A stretch of 51,979 nucleotides of DNA from an uncultured bacterium (GTDB lineage: Bacteria; Patescibacteriota; Saccharimonadia; Saccharimonadales; Saccharimonadaceae), in NCBI GenBank assembly GCA_903952435.1, contig CAJBFN010000006.1:1-51979 (forward strand). Direction: 5' to 3'. Position 1 is the first letter of the stretch. Every line of letters begins with the position of its first letter. Under the pieces are notes generated by a model. It was not told where the DNA came from. It was given only the letters and a program-made list of their open reading frames with translations, and made no database searches. The translations under genes and the position numbers were made by a program. This document shows positions 34,488-37,312 of this stretch, one piece after another.

Positions 34488-34495
34488 CGAACGGT
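34488..34495 (+). repeat. Target site duplication, left copy
   Basis: CGAACGGT, directly next to the left terminal inverted repeat; identical to 37305-37312. Confidence 0.85.
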
Positions 34496-34522
34496 GGAGA
34501 CTATCCCCTCATAGCAAGTAAG
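34496..34522 (+). repeat. Left terminal inverted repeat
   Basis: 27 bp from GGAGACTATCCCC to AGCAAGTAAG; one mismatch (C at position 15) to the right end. Confidence 0.85.
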
Positions 34523-34553
34523 TGTAATTCATTTATAGGTGTATAATATAAAT

Positions 34554-35177
34554 ATGGTTAATAGCAAAGTTAGAAAATTACGTTGTGGAGTTTTTATTGA
34601 CGGCTCTAATGTAGTTTGGGGCTCACTAAATATGGAATCTGACGTAAGGTGGTTTGTTGACTATGAAAAAATTAAAGATTATTTGAAATTACATTATAAA
34701 CCACAGTTTTATAGGTTCTTTGGTGCTATTGATACCGAGCCTAAAAGCCCTGTTTTTGTAGAAAAAGCCAAAATGCAAGCAAGGATATATGCAAAACTTG
34801 AAGGAATGGGGTATGATGTTATTTTAAAACCACTAAAGTACATAAAACAGGATGATGGCACATATAAAACCAAGGGAGATATGGATGTTGAGTTGTCGAT
34901 GTCTGCTATGGACTCAATTAATGATTTAGACACTTTTGTACTATTTGGCGGTGATTGCGATTATCACCCACTTATCCAAAGATTACACTCGCAAGGCAAA
35001 CATATACGTATCTATTCGTTTGATGCATTGCTTTCTTGGGAATTAAGAACCTTTGCTATAAAAAACACTAGATGCAGCTATAAGACGATAGACAGTCTTA
35101 AAGACAAGTTCGAGTATATCAAAATTACTGAGAATGTATTGACAAATAATAAGACAAGGAGTAATATTAAAAAGTAA
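34554..35177 (+). CDS. NYN-domain (LabA/DUF88-like, PIN-fold) nuclease-like protein, transposon passenger
   Basis: 207 aa. NYN fold with acidic residues at the expected sites: FIDGSNV (D16), KGDMDVELSMSAMD (D109, D111) and FGGDCDYHPLI (D134, D136), then a Lys/Arg-rich tail after residue 185. NYN proteins are PIN-like, metal-dependent RNases or their relatives. Start at the ATG at 34554: TATAAT (34542-34547) ends 6 nt before it, so the mRNA is leaderless; a GTG 15 bases upstream is in frame but overlaps the -10 box. First gene inside the transposon's left end; followed by a strong terminator. Confidence 0.8.
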   Translation: MVNSKVRKLRCGVFIDGSNVVWGSLNMESDVRWFVDYEKIKDYLKLHYKPQFYRFFGAIDTEPKSPVFVEKAKMQARIYAKLEGMGYDVILKPLKYIKQDDGTYKTKGDMDVELSMSAMDSINDLDTFVLFGGDCDYHPLIQRLHSQGKHIRIYSFDALLSWELRTFAIKNTRCSYKTIDSLKDKFEYIKITENVLTNNKTRSNIKK

Positions 35178-35184
35178 GATTTTA

Positions 35185-35214
35185 CCCGCTCCTCGGAGCG
35201 GGGTTCTTGTTTTT
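35185..35214 (+). terminator. Terminator of the NYN gene
   Basis: Stem CCCGCTCC/GGAGCGGG (35185-35192 and 35195-35202) followed by TTCTTGTTTTT. Confidence 0.85.
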
Positions 35215-35256
35215 AAAAGGTATGGGATATGAGTAAAAAACTATTCAAAAAACTAA

Positions 35257-36102
35257 TCAAACGCGCTTCGCAGCCAGTTCCAAAAGAGCAGGATAAACAA
35301 CTACACCCCGAAGGTTGTAGCGAAAAACAAACTCGTTCACATAATATTGCAAGTACTTCGGCGAAACGCAGTGATAAGTACCGTCAATCGAGCGCTTCAT
35401 CTGTCCCCAAAAACCCTCGATAGTATTTGTGTGAATTATACCTCTGACATATTCGTATTGTGAGTGATTCACAGATTCGTGAGGGTATTCTCTTTTCAAT
35501 CGGTTATAGATACGACTGTCATCTGTAATAATTGCACTGTTCGCTTCAATATTTGCTCGTAAGAACGGTAAAGCTGTGCTCGCATTAGCACCATCAACAA
35601 CTTTAGCTCGAACTTCTCCTTTTCGTTCGACAACACCTAAAATGGGTGTCTTGTTTTTGAAACGCCTATCGCTATAAGTTTTTCCTCCAATATATGTTTC
35701 ATCAGCCTCTACATTACCGCTTATTTTAGACCCAGTAGCGGTCATTAAAGAGCGTATTTGTCGAGCCATACGATGAGCTGTTTTATAAGTAACTCCTAAG
35801 TGTCGTTCTAATTCTTTAGCGGCTACACCGTTTTTAGATACAGAGAATAGATATATGGCGTAAAACCAACTTTTAAGCGGTGTAGATGACTTATGAAAGA
35901 TTGTTTCGGCTAGTGGGTGTAATTGGTAGCCACAATGCATACAAGCGTAACATTTACGACCTTTAACACGATAGAACTTAGTGTCTATCACGCCACAATT
36001 AGGACAAATAGTAACATCGCCATAACGTTCTTGAAAGATAGTATCAAGACAAGTATTTTCGTCGGGAAAATCTTTCATAAATTGTGCGTGTGTATATCTC
36101 AT
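35257..36102 (-). CDS. IS1595-family (ISXO2-like) transposase
   Basis: 281 aa. N-terminal zinc ribbon CPNC (C33, C36) and CMHC (C54, C57), then a helical DNA-binding part and a DDE domain: EADETYIGG (D134), IITDDSRIY (D194/D195) and the family signature HTNTIEGFWGQMKR (E229). Start chosen at the ATG at 36102 because a consensus promoter ends 7 nt before it; a longer in-frame form from 36270 would run through that promoter. Complete, with no frameshift. It moves the 34,496-37,304 element by cut-and-paste or similar, inferred from the family. Confidence 0.92.
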   Translation of the reverse strand: MRYTHAQFMKDFPDENTCLDTIFQERYGDVTICPNCGVIDTKFYRVKGRKCYACMHCGYQLHPLAETIFHKSSTPLKSWFYAIYLFSVSKNGVAAKELERHLGVTYKTAHRMARQIRSLMTATGSKISGNVEADETYIGGKTYSDRRFKNKTPILGVVERKGEVRAKVVDGANASTALPFLRANIEANSAIITDDSRIYNRLKREYPHESVNHSQYEYVRGIIHTNTIEGFWGQMKRSIDGTYHCVSPKYLQYYVNEFVFRYNLRGVVVYPALLELAAKRV

Positions 36103-36109
36103 ACTTCTA

Positions 36110-36137
36110 ATTATACTCGTAATATACTTGTTGTCAA
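36110..36137 (-). promoter_or_regulatory. Consensus promoter giving a leaderless transposase mRNA
   Basis: Minus strand: TTGACA (36137-36132), 16-bp spacer, TATAAT (36115-36110), then 7 nt to the ATG. Confidence 0.75.
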
Positions 36138-36249
36138 GTATATATATTAAGGTGTTACTAATGTACATTTGTTTATAATTTTGAGACATATTTAAAAGAC
36201 CTTTCTGTGAAGTTGTGGCAATCAACAAGAACATCTGATAAAATATATA

Positions 36250-36262
36250 TAGATAGATACGC
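36250..36262 (-). repeat. 13-bp copy of the tRNA anticodon arm
   Basis: TAGATAGATACGC is repeated exactly at 36347-36359, inside the anticodon arm of the nearby tRNA. Between the copies lies a perfect 8-bp hairpin AGGAGCAC/GTGCTCCT (36263-36270 and 36275-36282). Confidence 0.6.
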
Positions 36263-36307
36263 AGGAGCACGCAAGTGCTCCTTACGCATTTCTTGAGATT
36301 GAATTGT

Positions 36308-36384
36308 TTGGTACCAGCGGACGGATTCGAACCGTCATCGACATATTAGATAGATACGCGCTCTATCCATTGAGCTACGCTGGC
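36308..36384 (-). tRNA. Transposon-borne tRNA with abnormal anticodon loop (formal anticodon AUC)
   Basis: Complete cloverleaf with encoded CCA: acceptor GCCAGCG/CGCTGGT (one G-T), D arm GCTC-AATGGATA-GAGC, T arm GACGG-TTCGAAT-CCGTC, discriminator A73. The D loop and A73 resemble tRNA-Arg(UCU). The anticodon stem CGTAT/ATATG pairs, but its loop is CUAUCUA, giving anticodon AUC (formally Asp GAU) with U37; A34 and U37 are both unusual. Shifting to a UCU reading needs an enlarged loop. An 8-bp hairpin (GTAATAGT/ACTATTAC, 36389-36409) lies 4 nt before its 5' end, behind the gene at 36473-37252, so the two may be cotranscribed. Confidence 0.75.
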
Positions 36385-36472
36385 ATAAGTAATAGTTTTC
36401 TACTATTACCTTTCTAGCATAGACTGTGAGCAAAGCAATAAGGCTATTTCCTATCTGTTCTACCTGTTTCTA

Positions 36473-37252
36473 CTATTTTTTATGGTTTTCTACCAAGTTT
36501 CTACCAATCTCTACAAGATTGAGGTATTCAATATCCTTCGACTTTAATATCTCTGGTGTAATCGGGTTACGAAACTCAACAGCAGTACTACTCGCCTTGA
36601 AAAATAAATTTTTCAGTTCACCTTTAAATTTAAGGTCACTTAAAATCTGATGGACTGTTTTTTTAGCTGGTGAGTTAATTTTTTCTCTAATCTCTTTAAC
36701 GCTATGACGTTCGTTGGGGTTTGAGTATAAAAACTCGAAAAAGTCGTAGTTAATTGACCCAAACTGGGGCTTGGTCATATAGATATTGTTTAGAAAAATA
36801 ATACCGTCCTTAAATGTTATTTCGTAGATAGGAGGTAACGGAGCGGTCTGTTGAGTAGCAGGAGTTACTTTTTCGCTATTAGGCACTTTATTACTATCAA
36901 TTAGAAGTTTTGTTTGATTGATAGTATTTGCAAGACTTCTTTGTCTCAAGTACCCATAAAACTCATAAAATTTATCTCGATTAACTATTAATCTTGCGGT
37001 AAGTGGAGACGGGGTTGCATATAAGATACTTATCTCTTTAAGATAATTAAGAACTCGCAATTTTATTTCACGTACCCTTGCTCCCTGAATAGATTGAACG
37101 TTCTCTGCCTTCCATACATCATCATGTGCACGAAAAAGGTCAAGAGTCACCTCATTGCTCTTCGTTAGGTTCAGTTCTTGATGAATCTGCTTTGCCACCC
37201 CATAAACATTAATAAAGTTAGCAGTTTCTAGATTTTTTACTTCCTCTTCCAT
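36473..37252 (-). CDS. Putative winged-helix DNA-binding protein, transposon passenger
   Basis: 259 aa, not recognised as a named family. The C-terminal half (about 145-235) reads as a strand pair (YEITFKDGIIFLNNIYM) and a winged-helix-like unit: FFEFLYSNPNERHSVKEIRE, then KTVHQILSDLKFKGELKN. The N-terminal half is helical and basic, and a Pro/Thr/Gln linker lies near 125-140. No cysteine. Leaderless: TATAAT (37265-37260) ends 7 nt before the ATG, and upstream sequence runs into the right terminal repeat. It may regulate the element or assist the transposase. The downstream tRNA is on the same strand. Confidence 0.6.
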   Translation of the reverse strand: MEEEVKNLETANFINVYGVAKQIHQELNLTKSNEVTLDLFRAHDDVWKAENVQSIQGARVREIKLRVLNYLKEISILYATPSPLTARLIVNRDKFYEFYGYLRQRSLANTINQTKLLIDSNKVPNSEKVTPATQQTAPLPPIYEITFKDGIIFLNNIYMTKPQFGSINYDFFEFLYSNPNERHSVKEIREKINSPAKKTVHQILSDLKFKGELKNLFFKASSTAVEFRNPITPEILKSKDIEYLNLVEIGRNLVENHKK

Positions 37253-37277
37253 TAGGACTATTATATAACTATATCTG

Positions 37278-37304
37278 CTTACTTGCTATTAGGGGATAGT
37301 CTCC
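37278..37304 (-). repeat. Right terminal inverted repeat
   Basis: 27 bp, minus strand from GGAGACTATCCCC to AGCAAGTAAG; differs from the left end only at position 15 (A). Confidence 0.85.
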
Positions 37305-37312
37305 CGAACGGT
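37305..37312 (+). repeat. Target site duplication, right copy
   Basis: CGAACGGT, identical to 34488-34495. Confidence 0.85.

Follow-up and report, generated by a model that had tools for sequence, protein, structure and literature searches.

A tRNA-like gene and a matching predicted antisense RNA beside the transposase of IS1595-type elements in Saccharibacteria: a candidate RNA-only toxin-antitoxin module

Hypervariable loops met by matched antisense RNAs are typical of plasmid antisense control, for example in CopA/CopT and RNAI/RNAII. In the type VIII toxin-antitoxin system CreTA both partners are also small RNAs: CreT is an RNA with a mini open reading frame that sequesters a transfer RNA (tRNA), and CreA is a guide resembling a CRISPR RNA (crRNA) that needs Cascade (PMC8501985). 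Transposons with passenger genes have been described for insertion sequence (IS) families including IS1595, according to a passage of the ISsaga paper (PMC3129680) that cites Siguier et al. 2009. The DNA treated here is a 51,979-nucleotide stretch from an uncultured member of the Saccharimonadaceae (contig CAJBFN010000006.1), referred to below in its entirety as the window. It contains an IS1595-type transposon of 2,809 bp (34496-37304), and within this element lies a tRNA-like gene whose anticodon arm is present nearby in a second, exact copy. The copy is placed as if it formed the 5' end of a small antisense RNA, and the same arrangement has been detected in a total of 15 modules, of which 12 are in elements, one is in a derivative that has no transposase and two are at ordinary chromosomal loci.

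CreTA is the nearest concept, and the modules differ from it in both partners. Like a type VIII system, each of the 15 has, by sequence, two adjacent predicted small RNA genes with exact complementarity, and CreT also acts at a tRNA or translation step. However, the putative toxin is here itself tRNA-like, and in place of a Cascade-dependent guide there is a predicted plain antisense RNA made up of a seed and a terminator, although no dedicated search for crRNA-like handles was made. The transposon is of a kind already named, a cargo-carrying IS1595 element with interchangeable cargo, or transporter IS (tIS). It shares with IS1595-family insertion sequences and tIS (PMC3129680) a DDE_Tnp_IS1595 transposase with a zinc ribbon, inverted ends, 8-bp duplications and passenger genes; the Saccharibacteria elements differ in bearing the tRNA-like/antisense module beside the transposase, for which no report was found. 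Nothing matching a tRNA with an antisense RNA or antitoxin in a transposon was found in the open-access literature, and the pair has no Rfam match beyond 'tRNA'. To our knowledge, which extends to a limited open-access literature, the pair is unreported.

Searches with the transposase covered Saccharibacteria-order genomes and a genome contig collection, and yielded relatives about 40-75% identical to the window transposase. In about 18 of these sibling elements the ends are recognisable, of the type GGCGACTATCCC...GCAAGTAA, and the 8-bp duplications are exact but differ from one another; the lengths range from 1.4 to 7.6 kb. Where a sibling carries the tRNA-like gene, it is encoded on the same strand as the transposase and directly precedes it, and an exact 11-15-nt copy of the anticodon arm is found about 35-70 bp past the CCA end of the same tRNA. 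In the window the anticodon arm of the tRNA, GCGTATCTATCTA, has an exact repeat 97 bp away, which a preliminary description of this DNA did not contain. A scan of 2.17 Mb for the repeat together with the promoter added two further IS-borne modules, L286 and L287. The module at L165:6715 sits in the transposase-less derivative, whose ends are decayed as read by eye. Among the ARAGORN tRNAs of the loci collected before that scan, downstream anticodon-arm copies of at least 11 nt were confined to the module tRNAs and two other loci (L211 and L122). As judged from these sequences, chance does not account for the tRNA as a passenger of the window element, since siblings have such a gene next to their transposase as well, each time with the matching antisense copy. 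No tRNA-repeat module was seen in the more distant IS1595 elements of the genome contig collection. Viral contigs contain IS1595 relatives that also do not have it, and the exact pattern of the chromosomal module tRNA has no match in them.

On the opposite strand a -10 hexamer stands 4-8 nt before the seed in 15/15 modules, in 11 of them in extended form (TGn; binomial p about 1e-20), and a hairpin, usually with a U-tract, follows directly after the seed in all 15. The predicted antisense RNA, a 5' seed plus terminator, would be 34-47 nt long in the 12 modules with a callable terminator end; the window copy has no clear end. Computed duplexes between each tRNA and its own antisense RNA range from -20.5 to -29.8 kcal/mol (13 modules). 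Non-cognate duplexes average -9.5 kcal/mol, with a lowest value of -18.0, and none of 100,000 permutations matched the cognate set. L144 and L175 have near-identical bodies and differing anticodon arms, as do the window copy and L287, and in both pairs each seed fits its own arm. The architecture, a tRNA-like gene with a complementary copy behind a -10 hexamer and then a hairpin, is well supported, and the RNA pair is very probably real and selected for pairing. Both RNAs are presumably produced and paired in the cell.

Integrases often use anticodon arms, and a repeated arm could in principle be a DNA recombination scar, left by a tRNA-targeting integrase or by slippage, with no antisense RNA at all. 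The locus L153, where the 3' half of the tRNA has been lost, fits such a process, since it looks like a deletion via recombination between the two arm copies. However, the copies are just ~83-117 bp apart, the second one always begins at the start defined by the -10 hexamer and runs into the hairpin, and seeds and arms change together in the near-identical bodies just described. A scar is a very improbable explanation of the repeat.

The tRNA bodies are structurally conserved and the anticodon arms hypervariable. Covariation in the acceptor and T stems exceeds that of shuffles by a wide margin in each of the two main body classes; shuffles do not remove relatedness between the sequences, but slid pairings also score far below. 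The Rfam tRNA cut-off is passed by 10 of the 13 IS-associated module tRNAs. An alanine-like class accounts for 8/15 modules (L144, L154, L165, L171, L175, L286, L318 and L320). Its members have G2-C71, G3:U70 and A73 without exception, and G4-C69 in 7/8 (G:U in L154), while pairs 5-7, counted for six members, vary. In the window genome, G3:U70 occurs in tRNA-Ala only, among 36 ARAGORN tRNAs. Bacterial alanine determinants exclude the anticodon, and the acceptor features of this class match them (PMC9976931). Its anticodons (from ARAGORN or reading by eye) are CGA, GUC, AGU, GCG, GCG, GUC, CAU and GAA; none of the eight is an alanine anticodon. An arginine-like class comprises the window copy, L163, L165b, L167 and L287 and keeps A20 and A/G73. 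L147 and the decayed L143 fall outside both.

Acceptor identity and anticodon thus disagree, with alanine-type acceptors joined to non-alanine anticodons and, in the window copy, an arginine-like body with AUC. The mismatch speaks against a decoding tRNA. On one view the module tRNA is nevertheless a genuine translation tRNA that aids the element or its host, with the antisense RNA merely tuning it, and the conserved cloverleaf, CCA end and T-loop are what such a tRNA should have. That view is decidedly unlikely: besides the mismatch, complete in the alanine-type bodies (8/8), the loops vary, there is a wide range of anticodons from one element to another, and a tRNA-Asp(GUC) is already present in the window genome.

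Modules have also been found outside transposons. A covariance model built from six IS-borne alanine-like tRNAs was run on 393 genomes and the best 30 loci were fetched. Most of these turned out to be normal genes for tRNA-Ala or tRNA-Gly that have no repeat, and two are new loci with 16-nt anticodon-arm copies. L318 (anticodon CAU) adjoins a nusA-like gene and L320 (anticodon GAA) a gene for an L21-like ribosomal protein, both neighbours being named from sequence reading. A -10 hexamer and an antisense terminator like those of the other modules are present at both loci, and neither has an IS1595 transposase nearby or matching end pairs. The module can thus exist independently of the transposon.

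On the preferred reading, given a probability of about 0.4-0.5, the two RNAs together make up a toxin-antitoxin or addiction module that consists of RNA only. One partner would be the tRNA-like RNA, with its conserved body and hypervariable anticodon arm, and the other a small RNA from the opposite strand whose seed is exactly complementary to that arm and which terminates at once. A chimeric tRNA, with the acceptor identity of one amino acid and the anticodon of another, would if free cause mistranslation or clog translation. It would be weakly expressed, mostly by read-through of an upstream terminator; a strong terminator does precede the tRNA-like gene in 11/13 modules, which suggests low expression. 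The antisense RNA, from a strong compact promoter, would cover the anticodon arm, and loss of the element would leave the tRNA free to act. Group-2 elements transpose without the module, and the transposase-less derivative keeps it, which gives it the look of a module for stabilisation and not of a part of transposition. The tRNA would then be charged, harmful and a means of stabilising the element. It is tentatively proposed, at somewhat less than even odds, that the modules form a new Saccharibacteria class of RNA-only toxin-antitoxins, in which chimeric tRNAs are each silenced by their own antisense RNA, with many mutually incompatible specificities.

Several observations weigh against this proposal. 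L144, L154 and L175 are below the Rfam tRNA cut-off and L143 is decayed. Some copies depart from the usual size of the anticodon loop, and U37 is present in several loops. Members of the arginine-like class, the window copy included, mostly do not have C35, a main arginine determinant (PMC9976931), and the charging of this class is for that reason doubtful. In the window copy no clear terminator lies upstream, and the U-tract after the antisense hairpin is weak; together with its arginine-like body, this makes it a weaker example of the module.

The main rival to toxin-antitoxin is a role in regulation or copy control. The pair would then be an incompatibility-like device: related elements would be sensed or silenced by the antisense RNA, for which the tRNA-like RNA would serve as a structured target or a sponge instead of a toxin. 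CopA/CopT and RNAI/RNAII share with the modules a short structured RNA, a convergent antisense RNA, cognate specificity and a hypervariable loop. The variable arm on a conserved scaffold, the strict cognate matching, the position next to the transposase in 12 elements and the two differently coded modules, L165 and L165b, that lie adjacent in one genome would all suit such control. In contrast to the plasmid systems, the target is a full tRNA-like gene with a CCA end, and no replication or coding target is seen in common downstream of the modules. Against such control, a separate promoter for the transposase lies downstream of the module, immediately ahead of the transposase ATG, and the module persists without a transposase, persists at two loci that are not transposons, and is missing from group-2 elements. 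Regulation or copy control is rated rather unlikely, though it is the alternative to be taken most seriously.

If the toxin-antitoxin reading is right, tRNAs that mistranslate would add a new type of toxin and would give mobile DNA a new route to retention in its host, and this in bacteria with reduced genomes, whose selfish modules are for the most part poorly understood. There is also a caution for annotation: some predicted tRNAs in Saccharibacteria genomes are probably not ordinary decoding tRNAs.

The element in the window is well delimited (Table 1). The preliminary description had given it 27-bp inverted ends, an 8-bp duplication and an IS1595 transposase, and these hold. The arms are complementary at 26/27 positions (96%), CGAACGGT is present on both flanks, and the end sequence GGAGACTATCCCC, allowing at most one mismatch, occurs in the whole assembly only at the two ends of this element. 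The transposase matches Pfam DDE_Tnp_IS1595 (2e-41) with a zinc ribbon (8e-11) and the NCBIfam IS1595 model (5e-57). Two of the proposed passengers were likewise confirmed, the NYN-fold protein by Pfam (1.6e-19) and the tRNA by ARAGORN (anticodon ATC) and by Rfam (56.8 bits, above the cut-off). The third, a likely DNA-binding protein of 259 amino acids, has no significant Pfam match. Its residues 5-85 resemble a section of a protein of about 630 amino acids, and residues ~142-243 resemble a winged helix-turn-helix (wHTH)-like region of other Saccharibacteria proteins. It looks like a mosaic of two parts, and the wHTH label is plausible for the C-terminal half and not proven.

Table 1. Features of the IS1595-type element and its flanks, in window coordinates
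Feature	Positions	Strand	Basis
Left target-site duplication CGAACGGT	34488..34495		sequence
Left terminal inverted repeat, 27 bp, 26/27	34496..34522	+	similar ends in ~18 siblings
NYN/PIN-fold protein gene, 207 amino acids from ATG	34554..35177	+	Pfam NYN
Terminator hairpin of NYN gene, common to chromosomal G017 homologue	35184..35204	+	alignment
IS1595 transposase gene	35257..36102	-	Pfam, NCBIfam; likely start ATG near 36102, inferred from sequence
Transposase promoter TTGACA-16-TATAAT	36110..36137	-	read by eye; similar site in siblings
Extended -10 (TGA TAAAAT) of predicted antisense RNA	36239..36244	+	sequence
5' seed TAGATAGATACGC of predicted antisense RNA, exact complement of tRNA anticodon arm	36250..36262	+	repeat search
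Hairpin after seed, in terminator position, weak U-tract	36263..36282	+	dG -13.9, z -4.0
tRNA-like gene, Arg-like body, anticodon AUC, encoded CCA	36309..36384	-	ARAGORN, Rfam
Anticodon-arm segment repeated at 36250-36262	36347..36359	-	repeat search
Two-part protein, C-terminal half wHTH-like	36473..37252	-	similarity to Saccharibacteria proteins
Right terminal inverted repeat	37278..37304	-	sequence
Right target-site duplication CGAACGGT	37305..37312		sequence

The protein cargo of the siblings varies from element to element and includes aspartyl-protease-like, P63C, PemK-like and small membrane proteins, as well as a barnase-like PBECR protein that scores under the Pfam cut-off. The NYN and wHTH proteins are confined to the window element among all the relatives with a transposase that were compared. 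In a sister species (G017) an NYN homologue, 78% identical and with matching promoter and terminator, has no transposon around it. NYN proteins are RNA-cleaving folds, and the preliminary description had inferred that tRNA and nuclease, housed in one element, are functionally linked, and had seen in them a possible transposon class. Similar ends with different duplications were found in relatives, with other cargo: the same kind of ends occurs in siblings without the NYN and wHTH genes, an outcome that the description had itself named as refuting, and every sibling with the tRNA module is without NYN. Since cargo differs between siblings and NYN stands alone in the sister species, a tRNA combined with an RNase protein does not define a class of transposons. 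The link between NYN and the tRNA is most likely coincidental on these comparisons, and a joint unit is barely credible.

About 50 bp separate the element from a gene upstream of which it lies and which, from reading the sequence, resembles that of a tryptophanyl-tRNA synthetase (trpS). In a search for the empty site among same-genus relatives, the trpS-side flank was present in most genomes and the left flank was not conserved.

Six matches to the window NYN protein, some of them broken, are found in one Saccharibacteria genome (L182 and L013 in G078), which suggests that the NYN gene itself may have spread or been duplicated.

A second IS1595-type element of the window genome (L180:7237-10255, contig C9 of G000; 8-bp duplication ATACGAGT) carries a PemK/MazF-like toxin gene and, at the usual position of the tRNA, a seed-less hairpin RNA ending in CTGGCCA. 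An RNA of this kind, GGGTGAGYCYTA...CTGGCCA, replaces the tRNA-like gene upstream of the transposase in L158, L164 and L166, and that of L180 is a related form. It has no Rfam family in any of the four. In another related IS1595 element (L155:5583-8327) a gene that on reading by eye resembles a serpin (protease inhibitor) is an unusual cargo for a small transposon.

Repeats near tRNA genes were noted at three further loci. In Chryseobacterium (L122:4468-4757) an IS1595 transposase is closely preceded by a tandem array of three tRNA-Met genes, nearly identical to one another, which is probably a host tRNA cluster. At L340:1347-1421 (reverse-strand locus coordinates) a tRNA-Gly(CCC) has a 10-nt repeat 37 bp past its end, which may be chance. 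In the window genome (L211:1440-1780, contig C2) a tRNA-Leu(CAA) lies between the apparent halves of another Leu-type tRNA; a partial copy of the tRNA-Leu anticodon and variable arm follows downstream, and the Rfam match is to the tRNA alone.

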